Below, piece by piece: positions 10,829-64,000 of a stretch of 64,000 nt of DNA. The stretch covers positions 19,120,699 through 19,184,698 of the forward strand of contig CM057133.1 of assembly GCA_029964075.1 (NCBI GenBank). The letters are read 5' to 3'. The notes below the pieces were generated by a model. That model ran no database searches, was not told the origin of the DNA, and saw only the letters and a program-made list of their open reading frames with translations. The position numbers were made by a program, and so were the translations under genes. This DNA comes from Patiria pectinifera (lineage: Eukaryota; Echinodermata; Asteroidea; Valvatida; Asterinidae). Each line of letters starts with the position of its first letter. Within the stretch, counting starts at the first letter, position 1.

Positions 10829-11259
10829 GGTGTATGATGGACAATTAAGGAGTACGGCTAAAAGTTGTAGAAGCACAGCTATATTCACAATTGAAAGTGT
10901 CAAGTACATCAAACCAGAAATTATCAAATGTCAATGTCAAATGGAAAATGTATCACAATTCAGCAATATATTACAAACACAATGTAATCAAAATATCAAT
11001 GAAAACAATGTAATGAGCAACCATTGGCATCAAATACAAACATTCACATGGCATTCAGTCAGAGGCAAATTGATAATGCAACTCGATCGATAACAGACAG
11101 ATGATATTGTGCAATCAAATTCAATGTACCATCAATGGAATATCAAAAAAAAGGAGTATCACAATGATCAGATCAACCAAAGTATGAGCACAATTCAAAC
11201 ACTTTTAGGGTTATGTTCCAATAGGACCTAAAGTGTGACTGATAGTAACACACGATGCA

Positions 11260-33412: not shown

Positions 33413-34475
33413 AGTCTCCAAAAGTCTTTTCCAATACAACACTGATATATCTTACTGAGTAGTTCTGAAATTCGGCCGAGAATTACTATGAGAAGGAAAA
33501 AGAAATCGTATTTTATTACGTTTGCCATTTGATTGAAAATATTCCCAAGAGTCAGAATATCAAGTAATATTTTATAAACATGTTTTAGTTTAAAGGCAAA
33601 TCACGTATTTAAAGGTGCAGTTTTTCTGCAGTGGGATTTTTAACCCATTGACTTTGTACACGTTTTCAAGCCACCATTTTTATAACTTGGCGATCTGGAA
33701 TCGCAGCCATACAGCCAAGGAAGACCCTCATACAAAAATTATACCAATACTATGACGTCACGATGACGTCATCACCTATTTTTTGTGATTTTTGAAAATT
33801 TACGTGCATATTGTGAAGTCTTATATCTACAGAAATGTAAGTCCGATTGGGTTCAAACTTGGTATGTGGCTATACCAGGATGTGTTATAGATTAAAAATG
33901 AGGTGACGTCATGATGTCGTCATCCTGAGATTTATATATGAATATTTGATTTTTTGGACCTTTTAGCCATATCTCCCGAACGCAACATGCAAAATGCAAA
34001 ATTCTTTTTTGCATTTGGTCTGTTAGGTTATAGGTATTCGCACAAAACTTGAAAAATGTATGACGTCATCATGATGTCATCAAAATGCGTTTTTTCAATA
34101 CTCATATAAGGAAAGGTCCAATTGTCATGAAACTTGGTGGGTAGGTAGATAATCGTACTAGTATGCAAAGTCCGAAGTGACGTCACGATGACGTCATCAA
34201 AAATTTAAAAAAAATGTCGATTTTCAAAGTGCATTTTCGACTCTTTGCCAGTAATTCATTTAGATCACTCTTTGTCCAAGCAAAGACCTTGTACACACGC
34301 ACATACATCGTACTGCCGAGGTAAAATCCTGTCCACATCAGTGACCGTTTTAGCCGTTTTTCGGCTAACTTTGACAGATTTTATGTTCATGCATATTCAG
34401 GGCATATTATTGGTTAAAAAAAATCATAATGCGGAAAAGCCCTATGTTCTGTTGCAAACAAACATAGACCTCTAG
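33413..34475 (+). mobile_element. F2 copy, 5'-truncated
   Basis: It begins in the middle of the F2 second block and ends at the F2 3' terminus (CTAG 34472-34475). Its 5' terminus is not found anywhere to the left in the window. Confidence 0.75.
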
Positions 34476-36092
34476 TTTTTTCTTCTCCTTTTTCAGACTT
34501 TTTCTCCATAGGTTTAACACACGTTTCTTCCACCAGTCCACTTTGCCACTTTTTCAAATCCGATTAATTTCAGACTTGGTACATACTTAGACCACCACCC
34601 ACAGATGGTCCTAGAAGAAATTTGTGATCGTGACGTCATCAGGTGTCAGGTTACGTCACATTAAAGATGCATTTTTCCCCATATGTTTTGTACACGTTTT
34701 AAAACACTCCAGTTTGGCATCTTCGTAAATCCGATCGACTTTAAACTTAATTCAGACTTGGACCACCACCCACAAATGGTCCTAGACGAAATTTGTGATC
34801 GTGACGTCATCAGGTGTCAGGTTACGTCACATTAAAGATGCATTTTTCCCCTTATGTTTTGTACACGTTTTAAAACACTCCAGTTTGGCATCTTCGTAAA
34901 TCCGATCGACTTTAATTTTAATTCATACTTAGACCACCACCCACAGATGGTCCTAGAAGAAATTCGTGATCGTGACGTCATCAGGTGTCCGGTTACGTCA
35001 CATTAAAGATGCATTTTTTCCCCATATGCTTTGTACACGTTTTAAAACACTCCAGTTTGGCATCTTCGTAAATCCGATCGACTTTAAACTTAATTCAGAC
35101 TTGGACCGACACCCACAAATGGTCCTAGACGAAATTCGTGATCGTGACGTCATCAAGTGTCAGGTTACGTCACATTAAATATGTATTTTTCCCCATAGGG
35201 TTTGTACATGTTTTAAAACGCTCCATTTCGGCACTTTCGTAGATCCGATCGACGTTACACTTGGTACACACTTAGACCATCACCCGCAGATGGTCCTTGA
35301 AGAAATTCGTGATCGTGACGTCATCAGGTGTTACGTTACTTCACAATAAAGATGCACATTTTCCCTATATGTTTTCTACACGTTTTAAAACACTCCACCT
35401 TGGCACCTTCATAAATGCGATCGACCTCAGACTTAATACATACTTAGACCACCGCCCACAGATGGTCCAAGACGAAATTTGTGATCGTGGCGTCATCAGG
35501 TGTTGGGTTACGTCACATTAAAGATGCGTTTTTCCCATATGTTTTGTACACGTTTTAAAACACTCCACTTTGGCACCTTCGTAAATCCCATCGACCTCAG
35601 TCTTGATACATACTTAGACCACCACCCACAGATGGTCCTAGAAGAAATGCGCGATCGTGACGTCATCAGGTGTTGGGTTACATCACATTATAGATGCATT
35701 TTTCCCCATAGGGTTTGTACACGTTTTAAAACACTCTACTTTGGCACTTTTGTTAATTATGCGATCGACGTTAGACCTGGTACACACTTAGACTACCACC
35801 CACAGATGGTCCGAGAAGAAGTTCGTGATCGTACCAATTCCGAGATGGGTTATAGATAAAAATTTATGTGATGTCATCATCAAATGTCATGTGACGTCCC
35901 TTAAAGGGGAATTTTGTTCTTTATAGGCCTATATTTACAGACCTATATGATCGATTTGGTTATAACTTGACATGTACGTATAATGTGCTGTTATATATGA
36001 CATTTTTAGTGATGTCACTGATTGTTCATCACGTGCACAGAGTATTTCGAATATCCGAAACAGCTTGTGTTTGTCCACAAACACATCTCTGG
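34476..36092 (+). mobile_element. F1 body without visible 5' terminus
   Basis: This is an F1 interior with about eight 171-bp units, then the conserved F1 3' block (about 35850-36055) and an F1 3' terminus ending CTGG instead of CTAG. Its start is expected upstream of 33413. Confidence 0.72.
34560..35840 (+). repeat. 171-bp tandem repeat array (F1 core)
   Basis: The marker GATCGTGACGTCATCA recurs at steps of 171, 171, 172, 171, 172 and 170 bp (34631, 34802, 34973, 35145, 35316, 35488, 35658). Each unit contains TTTTGTACACGTTTTAAAAC, a CCGATCGAC-type site, ACCACCCACAGATGGTCC and usually TGACGTCA. The same units form arrays at about 36830-37380, 37950-38720, 39080-39560, 44050-44870, 46456-47560, 48060-48680, 55920-56710, 56960-57500, 58100-58660, 58830-59340, 59810-60740, 61230-61920, 62450-63130 and 63650-64000. 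Confidence 0.9.
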
Positions 36093-36655
36093 TTTATTCT
36101 TTCTTTTTGTCGCCAAAAATCCCATAGACTTTGTACAAGATTTTGCTGTGCGGCACTTTTGGTATTCATCCTTGTCATACATCTTTTAAAGTCAGCATAT
36201 GCATTAAAGACGTGACTTGAAGGGTGACGTAATGATTACGTCATCATGGGTCACGTGACGTCATCACAAACATGCATAATTTGAAGTCCTTTATCTAGAG
36301 AATTGTAAGTCCGATTTGTTAACACTTGGTATGTGGGTAGACCGGGATGTGTTGTACATAACAAAATGAGGTGACGTCATGATGACGTCATCGTGCAATT
36401 TTATATTAATTTTTGAATTTTTGGATCTTCCACAATGACAAAATGTGCATTGACAAGTGTTGTCAAGATGACGTCATTGCAGGGCATTTGGCCTCATAAA
36501 AATTATATTTTAGGAATTATTCACAGCATTTTGAACAACCTTTAACTGCATGAAACACTCTAAAAAAGTGACTGCAAAAGGACCAACAAAACATAAATAT
36601 TTGTAACATGCGAAAAAGCCCTGTGTTCTGTTTTCAAAAAGACTTACAGCTCTAG
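36093..36655 (+). mobile_element. F2 remnant
   Basis: It starts with the sequence normally just inside the F2 T-run (CTTTCTTTTTGTCGCC) and ends at a slightly diverged F2 3' terminus (CTAG 36652-36655). It lacks most of the F2 interior and its 5' hairpin. Confidence 0.7.
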
Positions 36656-36719
36656 TTAGCTGTTTCGGTGTACACACCGAAACAGCTCTTGTTTTTGTTA
36701 AGATTTTTTTTTTCTTTTT

Positions 36720-37799
36720 AGCTGTTTCGGTGTACACACCGAAACAGCTCTTGTTTTCTTTAAGATTTTTTTTTTTTCTCCTTTTTCAGACTTTTTCTCC
36801 ATAGGTTTAACACACGTTTCTTCTACCAGTCCACTTTGCCACTTTTTAAAATCCGATTGATTTAAGACTTGGTACATACTTAGACCACCACCCACAGATG
36901 GTCCTAGAAGAAATTTGTGATCATGACGTCATCAGGTGTCAGGTTACATTACGTTAAAGATGCATTTTTCCCCATATGTTTTGTACACGTTTTAAAACAC
37001 TCCAGTTTGGCATCATCGTAAATCCGATCAATTTTAAACTTAATTCATACTTAGACCACTCCCCACAGATGGTTCTAGACGAAATTCGTGATCGTGACGT
37101 CATTAGGTGTCAGGTTACGTCACATTAAAGATGTATTTTTCCCCATAGGGTTTGTACATGTATTAAAACGCTCCATTTCGGCGCTTTCGTAAATCCGATC
37201 GACGTTACACTTGGTACACACTTAGACCATCACCCACAGATGGTCCTTGAAGAAATTCGTGATCGTGACGTCATCAGGTGTCGGGTTACGTCACATTAAA
37301 GATGAGTTTTTCCCCATATGTTTTGTACACGTTTTAAAACACTCCAGTTTGGCATCTTCGTATATCCGATCGACTTTGAAAATATGAAAATATAGGTGCC
37401 GTCATTGTGACATCATCGGTTCTCATGTGAGGGCGCCCTATCTTTACATGATGTGCAGCCCCATATCTCCGCAAGTATAGGTCCGATTGGATTGAAACTT
37501 GGCATTCTCTCATATTGGGATCTGTAATACATGTATTTGATAATATAGCTGAAATCATCGTGACGTCCTTAGCTGTCATGTGAGGGCGCTCTAGCTTTGC
37601 ATCATTTGTAGCCTAATATCTCAACAATTACATGTATGCGTCCGATTGGGTTGAAACTTTGCATTCACACAAACTTGGATTACTTATACACCTGAAATTA
37701 GGTGAAGTCGAGAGTACATCATCGGTCGTCATGTGAGGGCGACTACCATGGCATGAAAAAACCGAAACAGCTTGTGTTTGTCCACAAACACATCTCTAG
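36720..37799 (+). mobile_element. F1 copy B, complete, 1080 bp
   Basis: The start hairpin is 36720-36749, followed by a T-run, 171-bp units, and then a variant 3' part (about 37375-37740) with three GTGAGGGCG motifs not seen in other F1 copies. The 3' terminus ends at CTAG 37796-37799. Confidence 0.8.
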
Positions 37800-37812
37800 T
37801 TTTTCTTTTTTT

Positions 37813-38982
37813 AGCTGTTTCGGCAATTCAGCCGAAACAGCTCTTGTTTTCGTTAAGATTTTTTTTCTTTTTTTTTCTCCTTTTTCAGACTTTTTCTCCA
37901 TAGGTTTAACACACGTTTCTTCTACCAGTCCACTTTGCCACTTTTTTATATCCGATTGATTTCAGACTTGGTATATACTTAGACCACTACCCACAGATGG
38001 TCCTAGAAGAAATTTGTGATCGTGACGTCATCAGGTGTCAGGTTACGTCACATTAAAGATGCATTTTTCCCCATATGTTTTGTACACGTTTTAAAACACT
38101 CCAGTTTGGCATCTTTGTAAATCCGATCGACTCTAAACTTAATTCATACTTAGATGACCACCCACAGATGGTTCTAGACGAAATTCGTGATCGTGACGTC
38201 ATCAACTGTCGGGTTACGTCACATTAAAGATGCATTTTTCCCCATAGGGTTTGTACATGTATTAAAACGCTCCATTTCGGCACTTTCGTAAATCCGATCA
38301 ACGTTACACTTGGTACACACTTAGACCATCACCCACAGATGGTCCTTGAAGAAATTCGTGATCGTGACTTTATCAGGTGTCACGTTACTTCACATTAAAG
38401 ATGCACATTTTCCCCATATGTTTTGTACACGTTATAAAACACTTCACCTTGGCACCTTCATAAATGCGATCGACCTCAGGCTTAATACATACTTCGACCA
38501 CCACCCACAGATGGTCCAAGAAGAAATTAGTGATCGTGGCGTCATCAGGTGTTGGGTTACGTCACATTAAAGATGCGTTTTCCCCCATATGTTTTGTACA
38601 CGTTTTAAAACACTCCACTTTGGCACCTTCGTAAATTATGCGATCGACGTTAGACCTGGTACACACTTATAGACTACCACCCACAGATGGTCCTAGAAGA
38701 AATTCGTGATCGTACCAATGCCGAGATGGGTTATAGATGATGGGTTATAAAATTCATGTGATGTCATCATCAAATGTCATGTGACGTCCCTTAAAGGGGC
38801 ATTTTGTTCTTTATAGGCCTATATTTACAGACCTATATGTTCGATTTGGAAATAACTTGACATTTATGTATAATGTGCTTTTATAGATGACATTTTTAGT
38901 GACGTCACTGATTGTTCATCGCGTGCACAGAATATTTCGAATATCCGAAACAGCTTGTGTTTGTCCACAAACACATCTCTAG
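37813..38982 (+). mobile_element. F1 copy C, complete, 1170 bp
   Basis: The start hairpin at 37813-37842 has loop CAATTCAG instead of TGTACA, with the stem kept. 171-bp units, the conserved 3' block and CTAG 38979-38982 follow. This is a good type copy for F1. Confidence 0.82.
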
Positions 38983-40047
38983 TTTTCTTTTCTTCTCCTT
39001 TTTCAGACTTTTTCTCCATAGGTTTAACACACGTTTCTTCTGGCAGTCCACTTTGCCACATTTATAAAACCGATTGATTTCAGACTTAGTACATACTTAG
39101 ACCACCACCCACAGATGGTCCTAGAAGAAATTTGTGATCGTGACGTCATCAGGTGTCAGGTTACGTCACATTAAAGATGCATTTTTCCCCGTATGTTTTG
39201 TACACGTTTTAAAACACTCCAGTTTGGCATCTTCGTAAATCCGATCAACTTTAAACTTAATTCACACTTAGACCACCACCAACAGATGGTCCTTGAAGAA
39301 ATTCCTGATCGTGACGTCATCAGGTGTTACGTTACTTCACATTAAAGATGCACATTTTCCCAATAGGTTTTGTACACGATTTAAAACGCTCCACTTTGGC
39401 ACTTTCATAAATTTGATCGACTTTATACTTAGTACACACTTAGACCACTACCCATAGATGGTCCTAAAAGAAATTCGTCATCGTGGCGTCATGAGGTGTC
39501 AGGTTACATCACATTAAAGACGCATTGTTTCCCTATTGGTTTTGTACACGTTTTTCTTCAAACTGAACTTCGGAAGTACAAGTCTGATTGGGTTAAAACT
39601 TGGTATGCATATTCACATGGATGTGTTATAGATGGAAATTGAAGTGACATCATCATCAAATGTCATGTGAAGTCCCTTAAAGGGGCATTTTATTTTTTAT
39701 AGGTCTATATCTACAGTACTAAAATGTTCGATTTGGTTGTAACTTGAGATGTACATATTATAATGTGCTGTTATAGATGACATTTATAGTGACGTCACTG
39801 ATTGTTCATCCCGTTCTCAGAGTATTTCAAATATCCGAAACAGCTTGTGTTTGTCCACAAACACATTTCTAGTTAGCTGTTTCGGTGACTCACCGAAACA
39901 GCTCTTGTTTTCGTTAAGATTTTTTAGCTGTTTCGGTTACACACCGAAACAGCTCTTGTTTTCGTTAAGATTTTTTTAGCTGTTTCGGTGTACACACCGA
40001 AACAGCTCTTGTTTTCGTTAAGATTTTTTTTTTTTTTTTTTTTTTTT

Positions 40048-43000
40048 GGCTTTTCCGCAAAGTGCGGAAAAGCCTTTGTTTTTGTTCTCATTTTTTTTCC
40101 CTTCTTCTTTTTGTCGCCTAAACCCCATAGACTTTGTGCATGTTTTTTTCTGGCCTCCACTTTTGGCATTAATCTTTGTCATACATCATTCAAAGTTTGC
40201 ATAAGCATAGTCCCTATAGCAAAGACGTGTCCCGAAGATTGACGTCATGGTGACGTCATCGACTAATTTATTATAGATTTTTGAATATTTAATTTTTCCC
40301 ATAGACTTTGTACACAGAAATTTAAAACAAATTGTCGCTTTTCAAAGGGCATTTTCGACTCTTTGCCAGTTATTCATTTACACCACTCTTTGTCCAAGCA
40401 AAGACCCTAATTCAAACAACATTGTGGAATGATGACGTCATGATGACGTCATCAGGTGTTTATTTATAGGCAAGTAAATTGTGACACTTTTAATATTTAA
40501 AAATGCATAAGAAATCAACCGTACGCGTCCGCAGCATTCTGTTGCCGGCAAGTGGTAGAGTAGGTTGAGGTCTTCATTTCATTCTGTGTGCGTGCAATCA
40601 CGTGACCTTTGCTTCCGGTCGAAAAAGGCCCAAACCGGAAGTGGCTTATTATTTGAAAATGGTAATAGAAATGAACTTGCTTTCAACGGTGTTAGTCTCT
40701 TGGCCGATAGTATTCTTCAAATCATCTACCGATGATGTCATGCAATCTTCGAGCGCCCTCTAGCGACAGGTTGAAAATTTGCAAAAATGTATTTTGAATA
40801 GATGTCTGTGGCGGAGTTTGTCGGAATCGCCTAAATATTGGTGTATATGATGACCTTGACCCACTTAAGACGTGTGCGAAGTTTTAGGCAAATGACGTCA
40901 TCAGACCGGAAGTTATAATAAAAAGACCCTTTTTCATTTGAAAATTCCTGAAAAATCAACCATGCCAGTTTTTATATATGTGTTTTTACTTTAATTGTCG
41001 ATTTAAGGGTAGGTCTAAAACATTTCAAAGTTTCGAGGCGATAAGTGAACTCGAACATACCCTGCGCACGCTTAAAACTTCACGTTGACAATACCTCTGC
41101 TTCAAAACATGCACAAGACAGGACGTCCACAATGTACATGTACATGCAAGTACGTTGTACATAGGCACATACATCGTATGTCAGTCAGCCTGCAGCGCAC
41201 GTGTGGCTGAGGCCAAATCCCGTCCACAGTGACCGTTTTAGCCGATTTTCGGCTAACTTTGACAGATTTTATGTTCATGCATGCGCATAGACAGGGACGT
41301 ATTATAGCACTTTTGGCATTAATCTTTGTCAGATATCATTGAAAGTTGGCATAAGCATAGTCCCTATAGCCAAGATGTGTCCCGAAGAGTGACGTCATGG
41401 TGACGTCAGCAAGTGATTTATTATGGATTCATGAATAATTATTTTTTCTCATAGACTTTGTACCCAGCTTTCTCCACAAGTCTTTCCCTATACAACACTG
41501 ATAGATCTTACTGAGTAGTTTTGAACTTCGGCTGAGAATTACTATGAGAAGGAAAAAAAAATCGTATTTTTTTACGACTGTCATTTGATTGAAAATATTC
41601 CCAAGAGTTAGAATAGCAAGTAATATTTTATAAAAATGTTTCAGTTTAAAGGAAAATCACGCATTTAAAGGTGCAGTTTTTCTGCTGTGGGGTTTTTAAC
41701 CTATTGACTTTGTACACGTTTTCAAGCCACCATTTTCATAACTTGGCGATCTGGAATCGTCATCAAAGTTACAGCCAAGGAAGACCCTCATACAAAAATT
41801 ATGCCAAGACTATGAGATCATGATGACGTCATCATCAAGTGATTTATAATGGATTCATGAATAATTAATTTTTCATAGACTTTGTACACAGCTTTCTCCA
41901 CAAGTCTTTTCCTATACAACACTGATATATCTTACTGAGTAGTTCTGAACTTCGGCTGAGAATTACTATGAGGAGGAAAAAGAAATCGTATTTTTTACGT
42001 TTGCCATTTGATTGAAAATATTCCCAAGAGTCAGAATATCAAGTAATATTTTATAAAAATGTTTCAGTTTAAAGGCAAATCACGTATTTAAAGGTGCAGT
42101 TTTTCTGCTGTGGTATTTTTAACCCATTGACTTTGTACACGTTTTCAAGCCACCATTTTTATAACTTGGCGATCTGGAATCGTCATCAAAGTTACAGCCA
42201 AGGAAGACCCTCATACAAAAATTATGCCAAGACTATTACGTCACGATGACGTCATCACCTAATTTTTTATTGATTTTTGAAAATTTACGTACATATTGTG
42301 CAGTCTTATATCTACAGAAATGTAAGTCCGATTGGGTATGTGGCTATACCAGGATGTGTTATAGATTAAAAATGAGAAGACGTCATGATGACGTCATCCT
42401 GAGATTTTATATGAATATTTATTTTTTTGGACCTTTTAACCATATCTCCCGAACGCAACATGCAAAATGCAAAATTCTTTTTTGCGTTTGGTCTGTTATG
42501 TAATAGCTATTCGCACAAAACTTGAAAAATGTGTGACGTCATCATGACATCATCAAAATGCGATTTTTCAAAACTCATATAAGGAAAGGTCCAATTGTCA
42601 TGAAACTTGGTGGGTAGGTAGTTAATCATACTAGTATGCACTATTCGAAGTGACGTCACGATGACGTTATCAAAAATTTAACAATATTTGTCAATTTTCA
42701 AAGTGCGTTTTCTACTCTTTGCCAGTAATTTATTTAGATCACTCTTTGTCCAAGCAAAGACCTTGTACACACGCACATACATCGTATTGTCGAGGTCAAT
42801 TCCTGTCCACAATGACCGTTTTAGCCGATTTTCGGCTAACTTTGACAGATTTCATGTTCATGCATATTCAGGGCATATTATTGATTAAAAAAACTTGGTG
42901 ACGTCATCGACTAATTTATTATAGATTTTTGAATATTTAATTTTTCCCATAGACTTTGTACACAGAAATTTAAAACAAATTGTCGCTTTTCAAAGGGCAT

Positions 43001-43980
43001 TTTCGACTCTTTGCCAATAATTCATTTACACCACTCTTTATCTAAGCAAAGACCCTAATTCAAACAACATTGTGGAATGATGACGTCATGATGACGTCAT
43101 TCTGTGTTTATTTATAGGCAATTAAATTGTGGCACTTTTAATATTTAAAAGTGCATAAGAAATCAACCGTACGCGTCCGCAGCATTCTGTTGCCGGCAAG
43201 TGGTAGAGTAGGTTGAGGTCTTTATTTCATGTCGTGTGCGGGAAATCACGTGACCCTTGCGTCCGGTCGAAAAAGGCCAAAACCGGAAGTGGCTTATTAT
43301 TTAAAAGTGGTAATAGATATGAACTTGCTTTTAACGGTGTTAGTCTCTTGGCCGATAGTTTTCTTCAAATCATCTACCGATGACGTCATGCAATCTTCGA
43401 GCGCCCTCTAGCGACAGGTTGAACATTTTCAAAAATGTATTTTGAATAGATGTCTGTGGCGAAGTTTGTCGAAATCGCCTAAATATTGGTGTATATGATG
43501 ACCTTGACCCACTTAAGACGTGTGCGAAGTTTTAGGCAGATGACGTCATCAAACCGGAAGTTATAATGAAAAGACCCTTTTTCTTTTGAAAATTCCTGAA
43601 AAATCAACCTTGGCAGTTTTTAAATAGTTTTTACTTAAATTGTCGATTTAAGGGTAGGTCTAAAACATTTCAAAGCTTCGAGGCAATAAGCCAACTCGGA
43701 CATGCCCTGCTTACGCTTAAAACTTCAAGTTGACAATACCTCTGCTTTAAAACATGTACATGTACATGTACATGCACGTACGTAGTACATCTCGTATGTC
43801 AGTCAGCCCGCAGCGCACATGTTGCTGAGGTCAAATCCTGTCCACAGTGACCGTTTTAGCCGATTTTCGGCTAACTTTGACAGATTTTATGTTCATGCAT
43901 AGTCAGGGACGTATTATTGATAAAAAAATCATAATGCGGAAAAGCCCTATGTTCTGTTGCAAACAGACATAGATCTCTAG
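40048..43980 (+). mobile_element. F2 copy with duplicated interior, 3.9 kb
   Basis: The start hairpin is 40048-40074 and the 3' terminus CTAG is 43977-43980. The interior is block alpha (about 40260-41300), two versions of block beta (about 41310-42890), and alpha again (about 42896-43900), whereas the type copy at 51976-55854 has alpha and beta once. An internal duplication of about 2.6 kb is likely. Confidence 0.75.
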
Positions 43981-44867
43981 TTTTTTTTCTTATTTTTCCA
44001 CTTTTCTCCTTAGGTTTTGTACACGTTTTTCTTCTACCAGTCCACTTTGGCACTTTCGTAAACCCGATCGACATGAGACTTGGTACATACCTAGACCACC
44101 ACCCTCAGATGTGTCTAGAAGAAATTTGTGATCGTGACGTCATCAGGTGTCGGGTTACGTCAAATTAAAGATGCATTTTCCCCATATGATTTGTACACGT
44201 TTTAAAACACTCCACTTTGGGCACTTTCGTAAATCTGATCAACTTCAGACTTGGTACATACTAAAATCACCACCAACAGATTCTCCTAAAAGAAATTCGT
44301 GATCGTACAGTCATCAGGTGTCAAGTTACATCACTTTAAAGAAGCATTTTTCCCCATTTGTTTTGTACACGTTTTACAACCCTCCAGTTTGGCATCTTCG
44401 TAAATCCAATCGACTCTAAATTTAATTCATACTTAGACCACCACCCACAGATGGTCCTAGAAGAAATTCGTGATCGTTACGTCATCAGGTGTCGGGTTAC
44501 GTCACATTAAAGATGCACATTTTCCCCCGTATGTTTTGTACACGTTTTAAAACACTCCACTTTAGGCACCGTCATAAATCTGATGGTCTTCAGACTTAAT
44601 TCATACTTAGACCACCACCCACAGATGGTCCTTAACGAAATTCATGATTGTGACGTCATCAGGTGTCAGGTTACGTCACATTAAAGATTCATTTTTCCCC
44701 ATTGGGTTTGTACACGTTTTAAAACGCTCCATTTCGGCACTTTCGTAAATCTGATCGACGTTACACTTGATACACACTTACACCACCACCCACAGATGGT
44801 CCTAGAAGAAATTCGTAATCATGACGTCATCAAGTGTCAAGTTACGTAACATTAAAGGTGCATTTTT

Positions 44868-45128
44868 TGTCCATAGGGTTTGTACACGTTCTTTTCTCCA
44901 TAGGGTTTGTACACGTTCTTTTCTCCATAGGTTTTGTACACGTTCTTTTCTCCATAGGGTTTGTACACGTACTTTTCTCCATAGGTTTTGTACACGTTCT
45001 TTTCTCCATAGGGTTTGTACACGTTCTTTTCTCCATAGGCATTGTGCACGTTGTTTTCTCCATAGGGTTTGTACACGTTCTTTTCTCCATAGGCATTGTG
45101 CACGTTGTTTTCTCCATAGGCTTTGTAC
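44868..45128 (+). repeat. 27-bp tandem repeat, about 9.5 copies
   Basis: The unit CTCCATAGGGTTTGTACACG plus TTCTTTT recurs every 27 bp, with the word CCATAGG ten times. It is a local expansion of the sequence that starts every F1 interior. Because 27 is a multiple of three, most frames are open on both strands and give periodic peptides, which I do not regard as genes. Confidence 0.92.
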
Positions 45129-51960: not shown

Positions 51961-52028
51961 TTTTTTTTTCTTTTTGGCTTTTCCGCAAAAAAGCGGAAAA
52001 GCCTTTCTTTTTGTTCTCATTTTTTTTC

Positions 52029-52080
52029 TTTCTTCTTCTTCTTCTTCTTCTTCTTCTTCTTCTTCTTCTTCTTCTTCTTT
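52029..52080. repeat. (TTC)n microsatellite
   Basis: Uninterrupted TTC units lie in the pyrimidine tract just inside the F2 5' hairpin. The other F2 copies have only a short CTTCTTC here. Confidence 0.93.
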
Positions 52081-53938
52081 TTGTCGCCTAAATCCCATAG
52101 ACTTTGTACACGTTTTTTCTACACGCCACTTTTGACATTTATCTTTGTCATACGTCATTCAAAGTTAGCATAGTCATAGTCCTTATAGCAGAGATGTGCC
52201 CCGAAGAGTGACGTCATGATGACGTCATCGACTAATTTATTATAGATTTTTGAATATTTAATTTTTCCCATAGACTTTGTACACAAAATTTAAAAAAAAA
52301 TTGTCGGTTTTCAAAGGACATTTTCGACTGTTTGCCAGTAATTCATTTACACCAAACTTTGTTAAAGCAAAGACCCTAATTCAAACAACATTGTGTAATG
52401 ATGACGTCATGATGACGTCATCAGGTGTTTATTTATAGGCAATTAAATTGTGACACTTTTAATATTTAAAAATGCATAAGAAATCAACAGTACGCGTCCG
52501 CAGCATTCTGTTGCCGGCAAGTGGTAGAGTAGGTCAAGGTCTTTATTTCATTCAGTGTGCGTGAAATCACGTGACCCTTGCTTCCGGTCGAAAAAGGCCC
52601 AAACCGGAAGTGGCTTATTATTTGAAAGTGGTAATAGAAATGAACTTGCTTTCAACGGTGTTAGTCTCTTGGCCAATAGTATTCTTCAAATCATCTACCA
52701 ATGACGTCATGCAATCTTCAAGCGCCCTCTAGCGACAGGTTGAAAATTAGCAAAAATGTATTTTGAATAGATGTCTGTAGCGAAGTTTGTCGGAATCGCC
52801 TAAATATTGGTGTATATAATGACCTTGACCACCTTAAGACGTGTGCGAAGTTTTAGGCGAATGACGTCATCAGAGCGGAAGTTATAATGAAAAGACCCTT
52901 TTTCATTTGAAAATTCCTGAAAAATCAACCATGGCAGTTTTTATATTTGTTTTTACTTTAATTGTTGATTGAAGGGTCGGTCTAAAACATTTCAAAGTTT
53001 CGAGGCGATAAGCGAACTCGAACATACCCTGCGCACGCTTAAAACTTCACCTTGACAATACCTCTGCTTCAAAACATGCACAGGACAGGACGTCTACAAT
53101 GTACATGTACATGTACATGCACGTACGTTGTACATAGGCACATACATCGTATGTCAGTCAGCCTGCAGCACACGTGTTGCTGAGGTCAAATCCTGTCCAC
53201 AGTGACCGTTTTAGCCGATTTTCGGCTAACTTTGACAGATTTTATGTTCATGCATGCGCATAGACAGTGACGTATTATAGCACTTTTGGCATTAATCTTT
53301 GTCAGATATCATTGAAAGTTGGCATAAGCATAGTCCCTATAGCCAAAATGTGTCCCGAAGAGTGACGTCATGGTGACGTCATCAAGTGATTTATTATGGA
53401 TTTATGAATAATTAATTTTTCTCATAGACATTGTACACAGCTTTCTCCACAAGTCTTTCCATATACAAACTGATATATCTTACTGAGTAGTTCTGAACTT
53501 CGGCTGAGAATTACTATGAGAAGGAAAAAGAAATCGTATTTTTTTACGCCTGTCATTTGATTGAAAATATTCCCAAGAGTTAGAATAGCAAGTAATATTT
53601 TATAAAAATGCTTCAGTTTAAAGGAAAATCACGCATTTAAAGGTGCAGTTTTTCTGCTGTGGGATTTTTAACCTATTGACTTTTCCCCTTTTTTAAGCCA
53701 CCATTTTCATAACTTGGCGATCTGGAATCGTCATCAAAGTTACAGCCAAGGAAGATCCTCATACAAAAATTATGCCAAGACTACGACATCATGATGACGT
53801 CATCTTCAAGTGATTTATTATGGATTCATGAATAATTAATTTTTCTCATAGACTTTGTACACAGCTTTTTCCACAAGTCTTTTCCTATACAACACTGATA
53901 TATCTTACTGAGTAGTTCTGAACTTCGGCTGAGAATTA

Positions 53939-54853
53939 TACGGAAGCTTAAAGTGACCATCCGAGTTTCCAAGTTTCCGAGATAATTTATCTCGGAACGA
54001 CGGAATACTGAGATAAAAACATGTCTTTTCGTGATATCGCATCTCGGAAAAACGTCTTTCCCGGAATTCGTATCTCAGAAAGATGTCTTTGCCCAATATC
54101 ACATCACGGAATGACATCTTTCCCAGAAATCGTATCTCAGAAAGACGTCTTTCCCTGATGTCGTATCTCGGAAAGACATCTTCTCCTGATATCGTATCTC
54201 GGAAAGACGTCTTTCCTTGATATCGTATCTCGGAAAGACGTCATTCCTGATATCGTTTCTCAGAAAGACGTCTTTCCGATATACGATATCAAGGAAAGAC
54301 GTCTTTCGAGATGATATATGAGAGAAAGACGTCTTAAGATGTTATATCAGGTGAAAACGTCTTTTCAAGATAAGATATTAGAGAAAGAACGTCTTTCCGA
54401 GATGAAAGACGTCTTTCCGAGATACAATATCAGGGGGAAACGTCTTTCTGAGATAGGATATGAGATAAAGACGTCTTTCCGCCAGGGAAAGACGTCTTTC
54501 CGGGATATCATATCAAGGAAAGACGTCTTTCTGAGATGATATCAGAGAAAGACGTCTTTCCGAGATGTTATATCAGGGAAAGACGTCTTTCAGAGATACG
54601 ATATCAAGGAAAGACGTCTTTCCGAGATGATATAAGAGAAAGACGTCTTTCCGAGATGTTATATCAGGAAAAGATGTCCTTCCGAAATGCAATATCAGTG
54701 AAAGCCGTCTTTCCGAGATACCATATCAGGGAAAGACGTCTTTCCAAGACACGATATCAGGGAAACACGTCATAAATATCTTAGTAATCCATCTTTCCGA
54801 GATAAATCATCAAAGAAACGTGGAAACTCGAATGGTCACTTTAAGCTTCCGTA
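53939..54853. mobile_element. 915-bp foldback transposon made of GAAAGACGTCTTTC repeats
   Basis: The terminal inverted repeats read TACGGAAGCTTAAAGTGACC and the mirror GGTCACTTTAAGCTTCCGTA. GAATTA flanks both sides (53933-53938 and 54854-54859). Removing the insert restores GAGAATTACTATGAG as in other F2 copies (such as 50530). The interior is an array of about 35-50-bp units, each centred on the palindrome GAAAGACGTCTTTC with CGAGATA and GATATC words. The units are in one orientation in the left third and inverted in the rest. No transposase. Confidence 0.85.
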
Positions 54854-57800
54854 GAATTACTATGAGAAGGAAAAAGAAATCGTATTTTTTTACGTTAACC
54901 ATTTGATTGAAAATATTCCCAAGAGTCAGAATATCAAGTAATTTTTTATAAAAATGTTTCAGTTTAAAGGCAAATCACGTATTTAAAGGGGCAGTTTTTC
55001 TGCTGTGGGATTTTTAACCCATTGACTTTGTACACGTTTTCAAGCCACCATTTTTATAACTTGGCGATCTGGAATCGTCATCAAAGTTACAGCCAAGGAA
55101 GACCCTGATACAAAAATTATGCCAAGACTATGACGTCACGATGACGTCATCACCTATTTTTTTTATTGATTTTTGAAAATTTACGTACATATTGTGAAGT
55201 CTTATATCTACAGAAATGTAAGTCCGATTGGGTTGAAACTTGGTATGTGGCTATACCAGGAAGTGTTATAGATAAAAAAATGAGGTGACGTCATGATGAC
55301 GTCATCCTGAGATTTTATATGAATATTTATTTTTTTGACCTTTTAGCCATATCTCCCGAATGCAACATGCAAAATGCAAAATTCTTTTTTGCATTTGGTC
55401 TGTTATGTAATAGCTATTCGTACAAAACTTGAAAAATGTGTGACGTCATCATGACGGAATCAAAATGCCATTTTTCAAAACTCATATAAGGAAAGGTCCA
55501 ATTGTCATGAAACTTGGGGGGTAGGTAGTTAATCATACTAGTATGCAAAGTTCGAAATGACGTCACGATGACGTCATCAAAAATTTAAAAATAATTGTCG
55601 ATTTTCAAAGTGCGTTTTCGACTCTTTGCCAGTAATTTATTTAGATCACTCTTTGTCCAAGCAAACACCTTGTACACACGCACATACATCGTATTGCCGA
55701 GGTGAAATCCTGTCCACAGTGACCGTTTTAGCTGATTTTTCGGCTAACTTTGACAGATTTTATGTTCATGCATATTCAGGGCATATTATTGATAAAAAAA
55801 AATCATAATGCGGAAAAGCCCTATGTTCTGTTGCAAACAGACATAGATCTCTAGTTTTTTTCTTCTCCCTTTTCAGACTTTTTCTCCATAGGTTTAACAC
55901 CCGCTTCTTCTACCAGTCCACTTTGCCACTTTTTTAAATCCGATTGATTTCAGACTTAATACATACTTAGACCACCACCCACAGATGGTCCTAGAAGAAA
56001 TTTGTGATCGTGACGTCATCAGGTGTCAGGTTACGTCACATTAAAGATGCATTTTTCCCCATATGTTTTGTACACGTATTAAAACACTCCAGTTTGGCAT
56101 CTTTGTAAATCCGATCGACTTTAAACTTAATTCACACTTAGACCATCACCCACAGATGGTCCTTGAAGAAATTCGTGTTCGTAACGTCATCAGGTGTCAC
56201 GTTACTTCACATTAAAGATGCACATTTTCCCCATATGTTTTGTACACGTTATAAAACACTTCACCTTGGCACCTTCATAAATGCGATCGACCTCAGGCTT
56301 AATACATACTTCGACCACCACCCACAGATGGTCCAAGAAGAAACTAGTGATCGTGGCGTCATCAGGTGTTGGGTTACGTCACATTAAAGATGCGTTTTTC
56401 CCCATATGTTTTGTACACGTTTTAAAACACTCCACTTTGGCACCTTCGTAAATCCGATCGATCTCAGTCTTGATACATACTTAGACCACCACCCACAGAT
56501 GGTCCTAGAAGAAATGCGCGATCGTGCCGTCATCAGGTGTTGGGTTACATCACATTAAAGATGCATTTTTTCCCATAGGGTTTGTACACGTTTTAAAACA
56601 CTCTACTTTGGCACTTTTGTAAATTTTGCGATCGACGTTAGACCTGGTACACACTTAGACTTCCACCCGCAGATGGTCCTAGAAGAAATTCGTGATCGTA
56701 CCAATGCCAAGATGGGTTATAGATGAAAATTCATGTGATGTCATCATCAAATGTCATGTGACGTTCCTTAAAGGGGCATTTTGTTCGTTATAGGCCTATA
56801 TTTACAGACCTATATGTTCGATTTGGAAATAACTTGACATTTATGTATCATGTGCTTTTATAGATGACATTTTTAGTGACGTCACTGATTGTTCATCGCG
56901 TGCACAGAATATTTTGAACACAAACACATCTCTAGTTTTTTCTTCTCCTTTTTCAGACTTTTTCTCCATAGGTTTTGTACACGTTTCTTCTACCAGTCCA
57001 CTTTGGCATCTTCGTAAATCCGATCGACTTTAGACTTAATACATACTTAAACCACCATCCACAGATGGTCCTAGACAAAATTTGTTATCGTGACGTCATC
57101 AGGTGTCAGGTTACGTCACATTAAAGATACATTTTTTTCCCATAGGGTTTGTACACGTTTTAAAACAAATCATTTCGGCAATTTCGTAAATCTGATCGAC
57201 GTTAGACTTAATACATACTTAAACCACCATCCACAGATGGTCCTAGACAAAATTTGTTATCGTGACGTCATCAAGTGTAAGGTTACGTCACGTTAAAGAT
57301 GTATTTTTCCCCATAGGGTTTGTACACGTTTTAAAACACTCCACTTTGGCACTTTCATAAATCCGATCGACGTAAGACTTGGTACACCTTTTGACTACCA
57401 CCCACAGATGGTTGTGGAAGAAATTCGTGATCGTGCTGTCATCAGGTGTTACGTAACGTTACATTAAATATGCACATTTTCCCCATAGGTTTTGTACATG
57501 TTTTTCTTCAAACCATACACTTTGGCTCTTTCACATGTCTGATTGACTTTAGACTTGGCACACACTAAGACCAGCAACCGAAGATGGTCCCTGATGATGT
57601 GTTACAGCCGATGATGTGTTACAGATGGAAATCGAAGAAACGTCATCATGACGTCATCACATTTCATGTGACGTCACATTAAAAGGGCATTTTCTTGGGC
57701 CTTTATTTACAGAACCATAGGTCTGATTGGATTGTTACTTGATATGTACACATACCAAGATGTGTTACAGATGAAAATTCAAGTGATGGCAGCATCAAAT

Positions 57801-58012
57801 GTCATGTGACGTCCATTAAAGGGGCACTTTTCTATTAAACACCTTTATCTACAGAACAGTATGCACAATTTGGTTGTAACTTGATATGTACCAATGTGCT
57901 GTTATATATGAAATTTGTAGTGACGTCACTAATTGCTCATCACGTGCACGGAGTGTTTCAAATATCCGAAACAGCTTGTGTTTGTCCACAAACACATTTC
58001 TAGTTGTTTTTT

Positions 58013-58765
58013 AGCTGTCACCGAAACAGCTCTTGTTTTCGTTCAGATTTTTTTTCTTTTCTCCTTTTTCAGACTTTTTCTCCATAGGTTTAACACACGT
58101 TTCTTCCACCAGTCCACTTTGGCACTTTTTTAAATCCGATCAATTTCAGACTTGATACATACTTAGACCACCACCCACAGATGGTCCTAGAAGAAATTCG
58201 TGACCGTGACGTCATCAGGTGTCGGGTTACGTCACATTAAAGATGTATTTTCCCCATATGTTTTGTACACGTTTTAAAACACTCCACTTTGGCCTCTTCG
58301 TAAATCCGATCGACCTCAGACTTGATACACCCTTAGACCACCGCCTACAGATGGTCCTAGAAGAAATTCATGATCGTGACATCATCAGGTGTTGAGTTAC
58401 GTCACATTAAAGATGCATTTTCCCCATATATTTTGTACACGTTTTAAAACACTCCACCTTGGCCTCTTCGTAAATCCGATCGACCTCAGACTTGATACAT
58501 ACTTAAACCATCACCAACAGATGGCCCTAGAAGAAATTTGTGACTGTGACATCATCAGGTGTAAGGTTACCTCACATTAAAGATGCATTTTCCCCATAGG
58601 TTTTGTACACGTTTTTCTTCAAACCATGTACTTTGGCACTGTATGTCTGATTGACTTTTCACTTGGCAGATGACATTCGAAGTGACTTTATCAAGTGTTC
58701 ATCACGTGCACAGAGTATTTCAAATATCCGAAACAGCTTGTGTTTGTCCACAGACACATTTCTAG
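58013..58765 (+). mobile_element. F1 copy K with shortened start hairpin
   Basis: The 5' hairpin is reduced (AGCTGTCACCGAAACAGCT, 58013-58031), having lost part of the left arm. The body holds 171-bp units, a deleted 3' block and a terminus ending CTAG 58762-58765. Confidence 0.7.
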
Positions 58766-59648
58766 TTTTTCTGTTTTTTTTCTCCTTTTTCAGACTTTTT
58801 CTCCATAGGTTTAACACACGTTTCTTCTGGCAGTCCACTTTGCCACTTTTATAAATCCGATTGATTTCAGACTTGGTACATACTTCGACCACCACCCACA
58901 GATGGTCCTAGAAGAAATTTGTGATCGTGACGTCATCAGGTGTCAGGTTACGTCACATTAAAAATGCATTTTCCCCATATGTTTTGTACACGTTTTAAAA
59001 CACTCCAGTTTGGCATCTTCGTAAATCCGATCAACTTTAAACTTAATTCATACTTAGACCACCACCCACAGATGGTCCTTGAAGAAATTCGTGATCGTGA
59101 CGTCATCAGGTGTTACGTTACTTTACATTAAAGATTCACATTTTCCCCATAGGTTTTGTACACGATTTAAAACGCTCCACTTTGGCACTTTCGTAAATTT
59201 GATCGACTTTATACTTGGTACACACTTAGACCACTACCCATAGATGGTCCTAGAAGAAATTTGTCATCGTGGCGTCATGAGGGGTCAGGTTACATCACAT
59301 TAAAGATGCATTGTTTCCCTATTGGTTTTGTACACGTTTTTCTTCAAACTGAACTTCGGAAGTACAAGTCTGATTGGGTTAAAACTTGGTATGCATATTC
59401 ACATGGATGTGTTATAGATGGAAATTGAAGTGACATCATCATCAAATTTCATGTGAAGTCCCTTAAAGGGGCATTTTATTCTTTTATAGGTCTATATCTA
59501 CAGAACTAAAATGTTCGATTTGGTTGTAACTTGACATGTACATATTATAATGTGCTGTTATAGATGACATTTACTGATTGTTCATCCCGTGCTCAGAGTA
59601 TTTCAAATATCCGAAACAGCTTGTGTTTGTCCACAAACACATTTCTAG
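58766..59648 (+). mobile_element. F1 body whose start lies outside the visible array
   Basis: It ends with a normal F1 3' terminus (CTAG 59645-59648). By bracket order it is the host of copies A, D and K, so its start hairpin should precede 36655; none is seen left of 33413. Confidence 0.6.
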
Positions 59649-59650
59649 TT

Positions 59651-62395
59651 AGCTGTTTCGGTGACACACCGAAACAGCTCTTGTTTTCGTTAAGATTTTT
59701 AGCTGTTTCAGTGTACACACCGAAACAGCTCTTGTTTTCGTTAAGATTTTTTTTTTTCTTTTTTTTTTTCTTCTTATTTTTCCACTTTTCTCCATAGGTT
59801 TTGTACACGTTTTTCTTCTACCAGTCCACTTTGGCACTTTCGTAAACACGATCGACATGAGACTTGGTACATACTTAGACCACCACCCTCAGATGTGTCT
59901 AGAAGAAATTTGTGATCGTGACGTCATCAGGGGTCGGGCTACGTCACATTAAAGATGCATTTTACCCCATATGTTTTGCACACGTTTTAAAACACTCCAC
60001 TTTGGGCACTTTCGTAAATCTGATCAACTTCAGACTTGGTACATACTAAAATCACCACCAACAAATGCTCCTAGAAGAAATTCGTGATCGTGAAGTCATC
60101 AGGTGTCAGGTTACATCACATTAAAGATGCATTTTCCCCATATGTTTTGTACACGTTTTAAAACACTCCAGTTTGGCATCTTCGTAAATCCGATCGACTT
60201 TAAACTTAATTCATACTTAGACCACCACCCACAGATGGTCCTAGACGAAATTCGTGATCGTGACGTCATCAAGTGTCAGGTTACGTTACATTAAAGATGC
60301 ATTTTTTCCCATAGGGTTTGTACATGTTTTAAAACGCTCCATTTCGACACTTTCGTAAATCCGATCGACGTTACACTTGGTACACACTTAGACCATCACC
60401 CACAGATGTTCCTAGAAGAAATTCTTGATCGTGACGTCATCAGGTGTCACGTTACTTCACAGTAAATATGTACATTTTCCAAATAGGTTTTGTACATGTT
60501 TTAAAACGCTCCACTTTGGCACTTTAAATTTGATCGATTTTATACTAGGTACACACTTAGACCACTACCAATAGATGGTCATAGAAGAAAGTCGTCATCG
60601 TGACGTCATAATATTTCAGGTTACGTTACATTAAAGATGCATTTTCCCCATAGGGTTTGTACACGTTTTAAAACACTCTACTTTGGCACTTTCGTTAAGG
60701 TGATTCATGTTAGACTTGGAACACTTACACTGTCTGATTGACTTTACACTTGTCAGACACTAGTAAGACCAGCAGCCTAAGGTGGTCCCCAGTGAGTTCA
60801 TAACGATGACGTCATTATGTGTCACGTGACGTGACATTAAATGAGCATTTCTTCAAATCGCTATAACTTCGAAAGTACAAGTCCGATTGGATTAAAACTT
60901 GGTATGCACATTCACAGGGATGGTTTATAGATGAAAATTGAAGTGACGTCATCATCAAATGTCCTGTGACGTCCCTTAAAGGGGCATTTTATTCTTTTAT
61001 AGGCCTATATCTACAGAACTATAATGTTCGATTTGGTTTTACTTGACATGTACGTAATATAATGTGCTGTTGTAATAGATGACATTTACAGTGACGTCAC
61101 TGATTGTTCGTCACGTGCACAGAGTATTTCAAATATCCGTAACAGCTTGTGTATGTCCACAAACACATTTCTAGTTTCTTATTTTTTTTCTCCGTTTTCA
61201 GACTTTTTCTCCATAGGTTTCACACACGTTTCTTCTACCAGTCCACTTTGCCACTTTTTCAAATCCGATCGATTTCAGACTTCGTACAAACTTAGACCAC
61301 CACCCATAGATGGTCCTAGAAGAAATTCGTGACCGTGACCTCATCAGGTGTCGGGATAAGTCACATTAAAGATGCATTTTCCTCCATATATTTGTACACG
61401 TTTTAAAACACTCCAGTTTGGCCTCTTCGTAAATCCGATCGACCTCAGACTTGATACATACTTAGACCACCACCCACAGATGGTCCTAGAAGAAATTCGT
61501 GACCGTGACGTCATCAGGTGTCGGGTTACGTCACATTAAAGATGCGTTTTTCCCCATATATTTGTACACGTTTTAAAACACTCCAGTTTGGCATCTTCGT
61601 AAATCCGATCGACTTTAGATTTAATTCATACCTAGACCACTACCCACCGATGGTCCTAGACGAAATTCGTGATCGTGACATCATCAGGTGTCAGGTTACG
61701 TCACATTAAAGATATATTTTTCCCCCTAGGGTTTGTACACGTTTTAAAACGCTCCATTTTGGCACTTTCTAAGATCCGATCGACGTTACACTTGGTACAC
61801 ACTTAGACAACTAATTACAGATGGTCAATGAAGAAATTCGTGATCGTGACGTCATCGGGTGTCATATTACTTCACATTAAAGATGCACATTTTCCCTACT
61901 GGTTTTGTACACGTTTTTCTTCAAACCATACACTTTTCCACTTCTTTATGCCTGATTGACTTTACACTTGTCAGACACTAGTAAAACCAGCAGCCTAAGA
62001 TGGTCCTCAGTGAGTTCGTAATGATGACGTCATCACGTGTCACGTGACGTGACATTAAATGAGCATTTCTTGGAATCGCTATAACTTCGGAAGTACAGGT
62101 ACAAGTCTGATTGGATTAAAACTTGGTATGCACATTCACAGGGACGTGTTATAGATGAAAATTGAAGTGACGTCATCATCAAATGTCATGTGACGTCCCT
62201 TAAAGGGGCATTTTATTCTTTAGTAGGCCTATATCCACAGAACTATAATGTTTTCGATTTGGTTGTAACTTGTACGTATTATAATGTGCTGTTATAGATG
62301 ACATTTACAGTGACGTCACTGATTGTTCGTTACGTGCACAGAGTATTTCAAATATATCCGAAACAGCTTGTGTTTGTCCAAAAACACATTTCTAG
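59651..62395 (+). mobile_element. F1 copy L (hosts M)
   Basis: The start hairpin is 59651-59679. Its T-run contains copy M (59701-61174). Its own body is 61175-62395. Confidence 0.72.
59701..61174 (+). mobile_element. F1 copy M, complete, 1474 bp
   Basis: The start hairpin is 59701-59730 with one mismatch (CAG for CGG). 171-bp units, the conserved 3' block and CTAG 61171-61174 follow. Confidence 0.78.
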
Positions 62396-63606
62396 TTTTT
62401 TTTTTTCTCCTTTTCCAAACTTTTTCTCCATAGGTTTAACACACGTTTCTTCTACCAGTCCACTTTGCCACTTTTAAAAATCCGATCGATTTCAGACTTG
62501 GTACAAACCTAAACCACTAACCATAGATGGTCCTAGAAGAAATTCGTGACCGTGACGTCATCAGGTGTCGGGTTACGTCACATTAAAGATGCATTTTCCC
62601 CCATATATTTGTACACGTTTTAAAACACTCCACTTTGGCCTCTTCGTAAATCCGATCGACCTCAGACTTGATACATACTTAGACCACCACCCACAGATGG
62701 TCCTAGAAGAAATTCGTGACCGTGACGTCATCAGGTGTCGGGTTACGTCACATTAAAGATGCATTTTTCCCCATATATTTGTACACGTTTTAAAACACTC
62801 CAGTTTGGCATCTTCGTAAATCCGATCGACTTTAGATTTAATTCATACCTAGACCACTACCCACCGATGGTCCTAGACGAAATTCGTGATCGTGACATCA
62901 TCAGGTGTCAGGTTACGTCACATTAAAGATATATATTTATTTTTTGTACACGTTTTAAAACGCTCCATTTTGGCCCTTTCGTAAATCCGATCGACGTTAC
63001 ACTTGGTACACACTTAGACAACCAATTACAGATGGTCAATGAAGAAATTCGTGATCGTGACGTCATCAGGTGTCATATTACTTCACATTAAAGATGCACA
63101 TTTTCCCTACTGGTTTTGTACACGTTTTTCTTCAAACCATACACTTTTCCACTTCTATATGCCTGTTTGACTTTACACTTGTCAGACACTAGTAAAACCA
63201 GCAGCCTAAGATGGTCCTCAGTGAGTTCGTAATGATGACGTCATCACGTGTCACGTGACGTGACATTAAATGAGCATTTCTTGGAATCGCTATAACTTCG
63301 GAAGTACAGGTATAAGTCTGATTGGATTAAAACTTGGTATGCACATTCACAGGGACGTGTTATAGATGAAAATTGAAGTGACGTCATCATCAAATGTCAT
63401 GTAACGTCCCTTAAAGGGGCATTTTATTCTTTTGTAGGCCTATATCCACAGAACTATAATGTTTTCGATTTGGTTGTAACTTGTACGTATTATAATGTGC
63501 TGTTATAGATGACATTTACAGTGACGTCAATGATTGTTCGTTACGTGCACAGAGTATTTCAAATATATCCGAAACAGCTTGTGTTTGTCCACAAACACAT
63601 TTCTAG
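62396..63606 (+). mobile_element. F1 body, start not in window array
   Basis: It closely duplicates 61175-62395 (including a shared AATATATCCGAAACAGC variant and shared CACTAGTAAAACCAGCAGCC). It ends CTAG 63603-63606. Another F1 body follows to the window end. Confidence 0.65.
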
Positions 63607-64000
63607 TGTTTTTTTTTCCTCCATTTCCAAACTTTTTCTCCATAGGTTTAACACACGTTTCTTCTACCAGTCCACTTTGCCTCTTTTTAAAATCCGATTG
63701 ATTTCAGACTTGGTACAAACTTAGACCACCACCCACAGATGATCCTAGAAGAAATTTGTGATCATGACGTCATCAGGTGTCAGGTTACATCACATTAAAG
63801 ATGATTTTTCCCCATATGTTTTGTACACGTTTTAAAACACACCAGTTTGGCATCTTCGTAAATCCAATCGACTTTAAACTTGTTTCATACTTAGACCACC
63901 ATCCCCAGATGGTTCTAGACGAAATTCGTGACGTCATCAAGTGTCAGGTTACGTCACATTAAAGATGCATTTTTCCCCATAGGGTTTGTACATGTATTAA
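63607..64000 (+). mobile_element. F1 body, continues beyond the window
   Basis: The interior starts after a T-run (TTTTTTTTTTCCTCC) and contains 171-bp units cut by the window edge. Confidence 0.65.

Follow-up and report, generated by a model that had tools for sequence, protein, structure and literature searches.

The 64,000-base stretch of the sea star Patiria pectinifera analysed here (the window; C5:19120699-19184698 of a 613.5-Mb assembly of 1020 contigs) carries, from position 33413 to its right edge, an array that is very probably a tower of serially nested non-autonomous Helentrons (HINEs). The copies belong to families F1, F2 and F3, with a fourth family, F4, found elsewhere in the genome, and their insertions would lie almost entirely in T-rich pads. 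Four things are shown by the sequences: the anatomy of the copies, the bias in their site and orientation, the rejoining of copies that were split, and the order in which interrupted copies resume. A scan of both strands for the termini found 11 F1 and three F2 heads, and 13 F1 and five F2 ends, all on the + strand, which bears out the counts, coordinates and single orientation of 14 starts and 18 ends reported in a preliminary description of the stretch. Within the window, F1 and F2 ends span 34474 to 63606. Four of these termini are degenerate, one start (58011) and three ends (36656, 51961 and 56935), and a lone 10-base F1 arm at 10720 was not accepted as a head.

Each copy is laid out as head, T-rich pad, family-typical inner boundary, body, 3′ terminal repeat, 3′ hairpin and CTAG. 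The head, a palindromic terminal repeat plus a tail, takes about 45-50 bases, and the pad lies about 45 bases inside the 5′ end. In F1, the head reads TAGCTGTTTCGG-loop-CCGAAACAGCTCTTGTTTTCGTTAAGA followed by T's, and the end is CCGAAACAGC, the palindrome TGTGTTTGTCCACAAACACA and TYTCTAG; in F2, the head is GGCTTTTCCGC-loop-GCGGAAAAGCC, and the end has the matching arm and then CTCTAG. The F1 bodies consist mostly of 171-base repeats. HINEs are defined, in the excerpted text of PMC4067079, by a palindromic subterminal inverted repeat 2-4 nt from the 5′ end with a 3′ match about 38-60 bp from the 3′ end. The 5′ repeat is present here as T or TTA followed by GCTGTTTCGG-loop-CCGAAACAGC, and F2 has it likewise. 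The 3′ repeat is also present, beginning 38 and stopping 28 nt before the CTAG end in F1 by motif count, and stopping about 34 nt before it in F2. The 3′ palindrome, TGTGTTTGTCCACAAACACA, lies about 7 nt before the F1 end, as read from the letters without a folding run. Heads come after T tracts, as insertion between T's demands, and what distinguishes a filled from an unsplit site is the inner copy and the length of a T or TTC tract, a duplication of T's alone being undetectable. None of the stop-to-stop frames listed for 33413-64000 is longer than 176 aa, in keeping with the lack of coding capacity of HINEs. Most of the HINE features tested are present, and the elements are classed here as probable HINEs. 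The F1 end had no exact match in viral_contigs or genome_contigs.

Other loci were sampled with a 1088-base F2 query (3885 first-look candidates, 40 scored, 104 matches). The sample comprised the 40 kb that follow the window on its right, a further 16 stretches of 10 kb picked by F2 similarity, 60 kb more beside two stretches and three short stretches, one of them unused; together these represent 14 loci on 12 contigs.

The proposal of the preliminary description, that copies inserted serially into earlier copies, is supported by two comparisons of filled with unsplit copies at these other loci. On contig C470, the F2 head at C470:31320 has the loop CAAAAAAG; next come a whole F2 copy belonging to a different subfamily (loop CATTGTTG) and, behind it, an F2 tail. 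When this inner copy is removed, the joined head and tail show 98.37% identity to the unsplit window copy at 51976-55854 across 3793 aligned bases, no gap being longer than 31. The inner copy itself matches a complete copy in C152 at 97.3% identity (2927 aligned bases, leaving aside one gap of 424 bases). At C6, the inner copy and the rejoined outer copy are both 3334 bases long, with 14 substitutions and six gap columns. Two weaker rejoinings were obtained in the window. The F1 copy split at 39977/43982, once rejoined, is 95.5% identical over 485 bases to the start of the copy at 59700-61174, and the copy 48939/55855-56935 is 91.6% identical over 1136 bases to 37811-38982; among the window heads, only these last two copies have the loop CAATTCAG. 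At C10, where a CAAAGTTG copy has been inserted, the loop CAAAAAAG on one side still goes with its own inner boundary on the other (96.7% identity to the window copy over the first 929 aligned bases, only 77% over the full length). Head loop and tail subfamily thus agree across the inserted copy at both C10 and C470. The separated F2 heads at C14rev 7143 and C5_920k 400 cannot test this linkage, since their variant loops have no fixed partner in unsplit copies.

The order of resumption points the same way. In unsplit copies (24 in all), the type of the head agreed with that of the inner boundary in all 23 that were typed. An end was followed by an inner boundary while a head was still open in 19 cases, and the resumed family was that of the last open head in 17 of them and that of the first open head in 13. 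Permutation of the resumed families gave a mean of 7.4, and none of 100000 permutations reached 17, a test that is inflated because families cluster by locus. This count leaves out the forward stack at C14 and the heads missed by the detector (58011 in the window and one in C6). Resumption with no open head in the sampled stretch accounted for 36 of the 55 typed cases, in part because the sampled stretches begin inside towers, and nine further resumptions could not be typed. Of the 18 window ends, after each of which the sequence had earlier been said to resume at the inner boundary of the enclosing copy, 11 run into an inner boundary and seven into another start. The B-subtype tails become alike exactly at the inner boundary, with 59-70% identity before it and 96-99% after.

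Insertions were found at few kinds of site. Among 63 recognised heads, 37 are immediately preceded by another head and 20 by an end. Of the remaining six, one sits in a truncated end (C10) and one behind a degenerate end (C9), and four lie in apparent host DNA and are taken as tower bases. None of the 63 lies inside an intact tail interior. All 14 window heads come after a head or an end, and none falls within the 26324 bases of window tail interior, which hold 3213 TT and 128 T-runs of at least five bases. A preference for TT alone would not place heads in this way, while a preference for long T tracts would, since few of the interior T-runs reach six (34) or eight bases (three). The pad may be favoured for its T's alone or also for the neighbouring hairpin. 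For the C10 head at 4720, insertion in a 3′ hairpin was considered, but the remainder of the hairpin was not found after its end, and a small deletion is more likely.

The bracket-like order of starts and ends, on which the preliminary description had leaned, was rejected as proof of nesting after shuffling. Its claim that no pair crosses stands only if the start at 49049 is left out; on the full order, pairing by a plain per-family stack yields 14 pairs with a single crossing. The real token order allows at most 13 non-crossing pairs, and when the 32 tokens were shuffled, at least 13 were reached in 187 of 2000 trials, which makes the order a weak argument. With a per-family stack, at least 13 pairs and zero crossing were obtained in 305 of 20000 shuffles. 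A single family under a stack parser never crosses, and therefore only the interleaving of F1 with F2 and the leftover count are informative. Taken alone, the bracket order is nearly uninformative, suggestive and not decisive. As for the depth of up to five levels claimed earlier, four levels with both head and end can be followed (39874 > 39925 > 39977 > 40048), but the fifth needs the headless copy ending at 59648.

The start at 49049, described earlier as lacking an end, turned out not to be F1. The head at 49048 reads on into GTTTCTGTTATTT, and the stretch 49037-50281 shares 93.6% identity with the F3 copy in C152, so that an F1 copy with a lost F1 end was replaced by an F3 copy. F3 has an F1-like head continuing in this way, an F2-like middle and its own end, beginning TCGAAACAGCTCAGTG, and is complete with that end in C152. 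In the copy at 49048, this end is absent and the sequence continues as F2; F2 and F3 share about 1.05 kb, and the F3 end was likely lost by recombination between the two. F4, found in towers outside the window, has the head GCTGTTCCCAATTTCAATTGGGAACAGC and the end GGGAACAGCTCTGTGGTTGTTCACAACCACAATTTCTAG. A hybrid family with an F1 head and an F2 end (49048, C2rev) was not adopted, since F3 and F4 have their own ends elsewhere, an argument that is weaker at C2rev, where F4 ends were not found.

Inner copies had been predicted to be younger than outer ones, and relative age was evaluated from copy-private differences of inner and outer copies. The F2 set comprised 14 pairs, one trio supplying three of them and the outer head being out of view in eight. 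The inner count was lower in ten, higher in three and tied in one, and the six pairs significant at P < 0.05 all had the lower inner count. In two of these six the outer copy is F4, which may look too old because few relatives are at hand. Across 11 F1 pairs in and just beyond the window, the inner count was lower in six and higher in five; one pair significantly favours a younger inner copy (47989 in 48928, P = 0.033) and two go the other way. The result is mixed: as judged from these differences, the prediction appears supported in F2 and unsettled in the window.

Several observations weigh against serial nesting. In the eight resumption events with mixed stacks, the last open head fits six, the first fits two and a random open head would fit 3.67 on average (P = 0.075), and two resumptions, at C14rev 17324 and C152 8326, are mismatches. 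The two contrary F1 age pairs are 58003 and 58765 in 59648, with the inner copy more diverged (P = 0.0017 and 0.027); in both, the outer partner is a tail without head (59648), and the private count of the inner copies is only an upper bound, since their nearest relatives at hand are 12% and 8% away. Headless tails occur at many loci, with eight F1 tails of this kind in the C10 array, and the stacks are unbalanced. In the window they end at 34474, 36092, 36656, 59648 and 63606 and, beyond the window, at 64875, 68484, 70696 and 74195. At C14:24080645-24081200, ten palindromic heads of at least two families are stacked in about 0.5 kb, and no F1 or F2 end was found in the 40.9 kb to their right, where other ends were not sought. 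The tails ending at 62395 and 63606 are nearest relatives, 92-99% alike per 150-column step, and the C470a tails 3500 and 4844 are mutual nearest relatives; local duplication is possible behind these most similar neighbours. Lastly, no autonomous partner with these ends was identified, the ends and endonuclease around matches to PF14214 (Helitron_like_N) not having been searched.

Some of the imbalance may arise at the left edge of the array. An F2 copy is cut off there, at 33413, and no element homology was found in 1-33412 with five element queries. A cut at this point would remove a whole stack of outer heads and would account for headless tails to its right. On the other side, the array continues past 64000, with related sequence to at least 75669. 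Under serial nesting, missing heads and ends would have been lost by later deletion or recombination.

The ten C14 heads without F1 or F2 ends would also suit head stacks that travel as composites, starting at the outer head and stopping at the first end, so that several heads share one tail. Excerpts of PMC5148889 give this as the model for multiple 5′ termini in Fusarium, and an F2 head stands directly before an F3 head in both the window and C152. However, outer heads, where checked, have tails of their own further right. Such travel is unlikely here and could only add to nesting, because composites presuppose it.

A quite improbable alternative treats heads and tails as modules that have been reshuffled between T tracts, through recombination or template switching, the nesting being only apparent. 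It would explain why borders are always at T tracts and why bracket order alone is near chance, and the F3 copy at 49048 that runs into F2 does show recombination. Nevertheless, split copies rejoin to their own subfamily, with the long alignment at C470, the equal lengths at C6 and the loop-tail agreement at C10 and C470, and resumption follows the last open head in most cases. At C470 and C6, shuffling is largely refuted.

Still less probable is that tandem duplication, unequal crossing-over or rolling-circle concatemers from missed termination built most of the array. Missed termination is the explanation given for tandem Helitrons in the excerpted PMC4067079, and the runs of headless tails and the two pairs of closely similar neighbours fit it. 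But simple tandem copies do not give heads directly after heads, the arrangement of more than half of the recognised heads, and most neighbouring F2 tails are not nearest relatives in the tree. The head-tail-head-tail order of a missed-termination array was not found: 37 of 63 heads follow a head, and 11 of 18 window ends are followed by an inner boundary. Moreover, the parts of the blocks formed by a B-subtype tail, heads and a C-subtype tail diverge unequally (B about 96-99%, C mostly 83-98% alike). A single segmental duplication for the two such blocks (38983-47989 and 58766-61174) was not adopted, since the similarity starts at a module border and the B and C tails differ in divergence.

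An assembly artefact in a repeat-rich region is the least probable of all: reads were not examined and C152 and C470 are small contigs (11.6 and 40.4 kb), but at least two adjacent heads occur at 10 of the 14 loci, on nine contigs of which seven exceed 15 Mb, and misjoins would not repeatedly yield exact rejoining at T tracts.

In a tower of serially nested HINEs, a newcomer would insert between T's, nearly always in an existing copy's pad or in a pad remnant beside an earlier insert, the copies being put in place, we infer, by a rolling-circle transposase supplied in trans. The struck copy would be divided into head and tail with the newcomer in the middle, so heads would accumulate on the left and tails would close on the right in reverse order. 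Since the pad is T-rich on one strand only, inserts would share the orientation of the host copy, and since a newcomer carries a fresh pad, insertions would repeat. It is quite conceivable, if somewhat short of probable, that these HINEs are self-targeting: the microsatellite slot behind the 5′ hairpin would have become a T-rich landing pad strongly preferred by their own machinery, and one insertion would seed an orientation-locked, stack-ordered tower. Towers would then document the sequence of transposition events, and whole head stacks could travel as composites.

The genome holds 148 matches to PF14214, and some fall in open frames as long as 3564 aa. Counted by hand, about 86 of these matches lie on one of the 1020 contigs, C7, all but one in its first 23 Mb, and C7 may be a chromosome where autonomous Helitrons accumulate.

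From left to right, with every feature on the + strand, the array opens with the F2 tail without head cut by the edge (33413-34474, end at 34429-34474), an F1 tail without head (34475-36092, inner boundary typed I1, end present) and an F2 tail without head (36093-36656, inner boundary typed I2, degenerate end with two mismatches). The F1 copy at 36657-39872, with head, end and a resumption at I1 under the open F1 head, has its pad split by two later, unsplit F1 copies, 36719-37799 (placed by terminus and inner-boundary typing) and 37812-38982 (loop CAATTCAG; termini, inner boundary and rejoining comparison). Termini, inner boundary and resumption order define the F1 copy at 39874-58003, whose head and tail lie 17 kb apart, and the F1 copy nested in it at 39925-48928. 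Deeper still are the C-subtype F1 copy at 39977-47989, recognised by its rejoined start, and the F2 copy that splits it at 40048-43981 (termini, inner boundary), the innermost of the four levels. The tail ending at 47989 is interrupted by about 1.57 kb of unrelated sequence (44891-46455), and the flanks 44531-44890 and 46451-46800 resemble each other at 96-98% along some 300 bases, which looks like a doubling of part of the repeat array around the insert.

The F1 copy at 48939-56935 (loop CAATTCAG, rejoined as above) is split by F2 and F3 copies. Here lie an F2 copy with head and end and a lost inner boundary (49001-51961; terminus scan and inner-boundary typing), the F3 head and body without 3′ end (49048-50281, right border not fixed) and the unsplit F2 copy at 51976-55854, recognised by its termini and its match to C470. 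This last copy contains a 925-base foldback of about 31-base palindromic units (53934-54858), a trait of its F2 subfamily and not a private insert, since the alignment with the rejoined C470 copy passes through it with no large gap. Then come an F1 copy with truncated head (58011-58765, terminus scan), the B-subtype F1 tail without head (58766-59648), 96-99% identical to 38983-39872 per 150-column step from the inner boundary on, and an F1 copy (59650-62395; termini, inner boundary, resumption order) split by the unsplit C-subtype F1 copy at 59700-61174 (termini, inner boundary, rejoining comparison). The array leaves the window with a headless F1 tail (62396-63606, end present), nearest in tail comparison to the tail ending at 62395, and with the start of a further F1 tail (63607-64000), assigned by its inner boundary and the sequence right of the window, whose end is at 64875.

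Outside the array, a retrotransposon occupies 4971-10930 on the - strand, with protease, reverse transcriptase, RNase H and integrase domains in one 1566-aa frame and a sub-threshold zinc knuckle in a second. A 288-aa open frame with a GIY-YIG domain match lies at 3035-3901 (+), and just left of the tower, at 31506-32243, there are tandem repeats of about 76 and 172 bases with ATTACC-rich units.

In the nested long terminal repeat (LTR) retrotransposons of grasses, later copies lie inside earlier ones and can be read as a time order, with sites scattered through the host copy. The sites in the Patiria tower, in contrast, are confined to one small pad and the orientation is fixed.

As far as the excerpts of PMC4067079 describe them, HINEs and DINE-1 share with the present elements palindromic subterminal repeats, a 3′ palindrome, T-rich or TT insertion, border T's, tandem repeats in the body and no coding capacity; their clusters and tandem arrays are ascribed there to missed termination or nearby insertion, and ordered towers through a 5′ T pad do not figure in those excerpts. 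Cg_HINE of the Pacific oyster, in the excerpted PMC7492417, has a left module (subterminal repeat, inverted repeat and microsatellite), a satellite-like array and a right palindromic module, as well as oligo-T targets, and the T pad found here occupies the position of its microsatellite. The word 'nested' is absent from the main text of that paper, and excerpts of a later review (PMC12628747) mention oyster loci where elements sit within other elements. Nested Helitrons are likewise described in excerpts on maize (PMC3288121) and on Fusarium, which has a nested case and multiple 5′ termini, with a self-insertion model for composites (PMC5148889). Both resemble the tower in self-insertion and in the several 5′ or 3′ termini that arise from nesting; unlike it, they are reported in these excerpts as single or few nested cases, without repeated use of one internal pad. 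In the open-licence literature searched, no description of ordered towers built by repeated insertion into a 5′ T pad was recognised. Nesting is already known, and it is towers so regular and self-targeted that are unusual.

A non-coding transposon that carries its own target near its own end would have a simple route to long, directional arrays rich in satellite repeats, with no need for unequal crossing-over. Nesting makes sense of the stacked heads and split tails, which would otherwise be read as fragments, and the nesting order would serve as a relative transposition clock that can be tested against sequence divergence.

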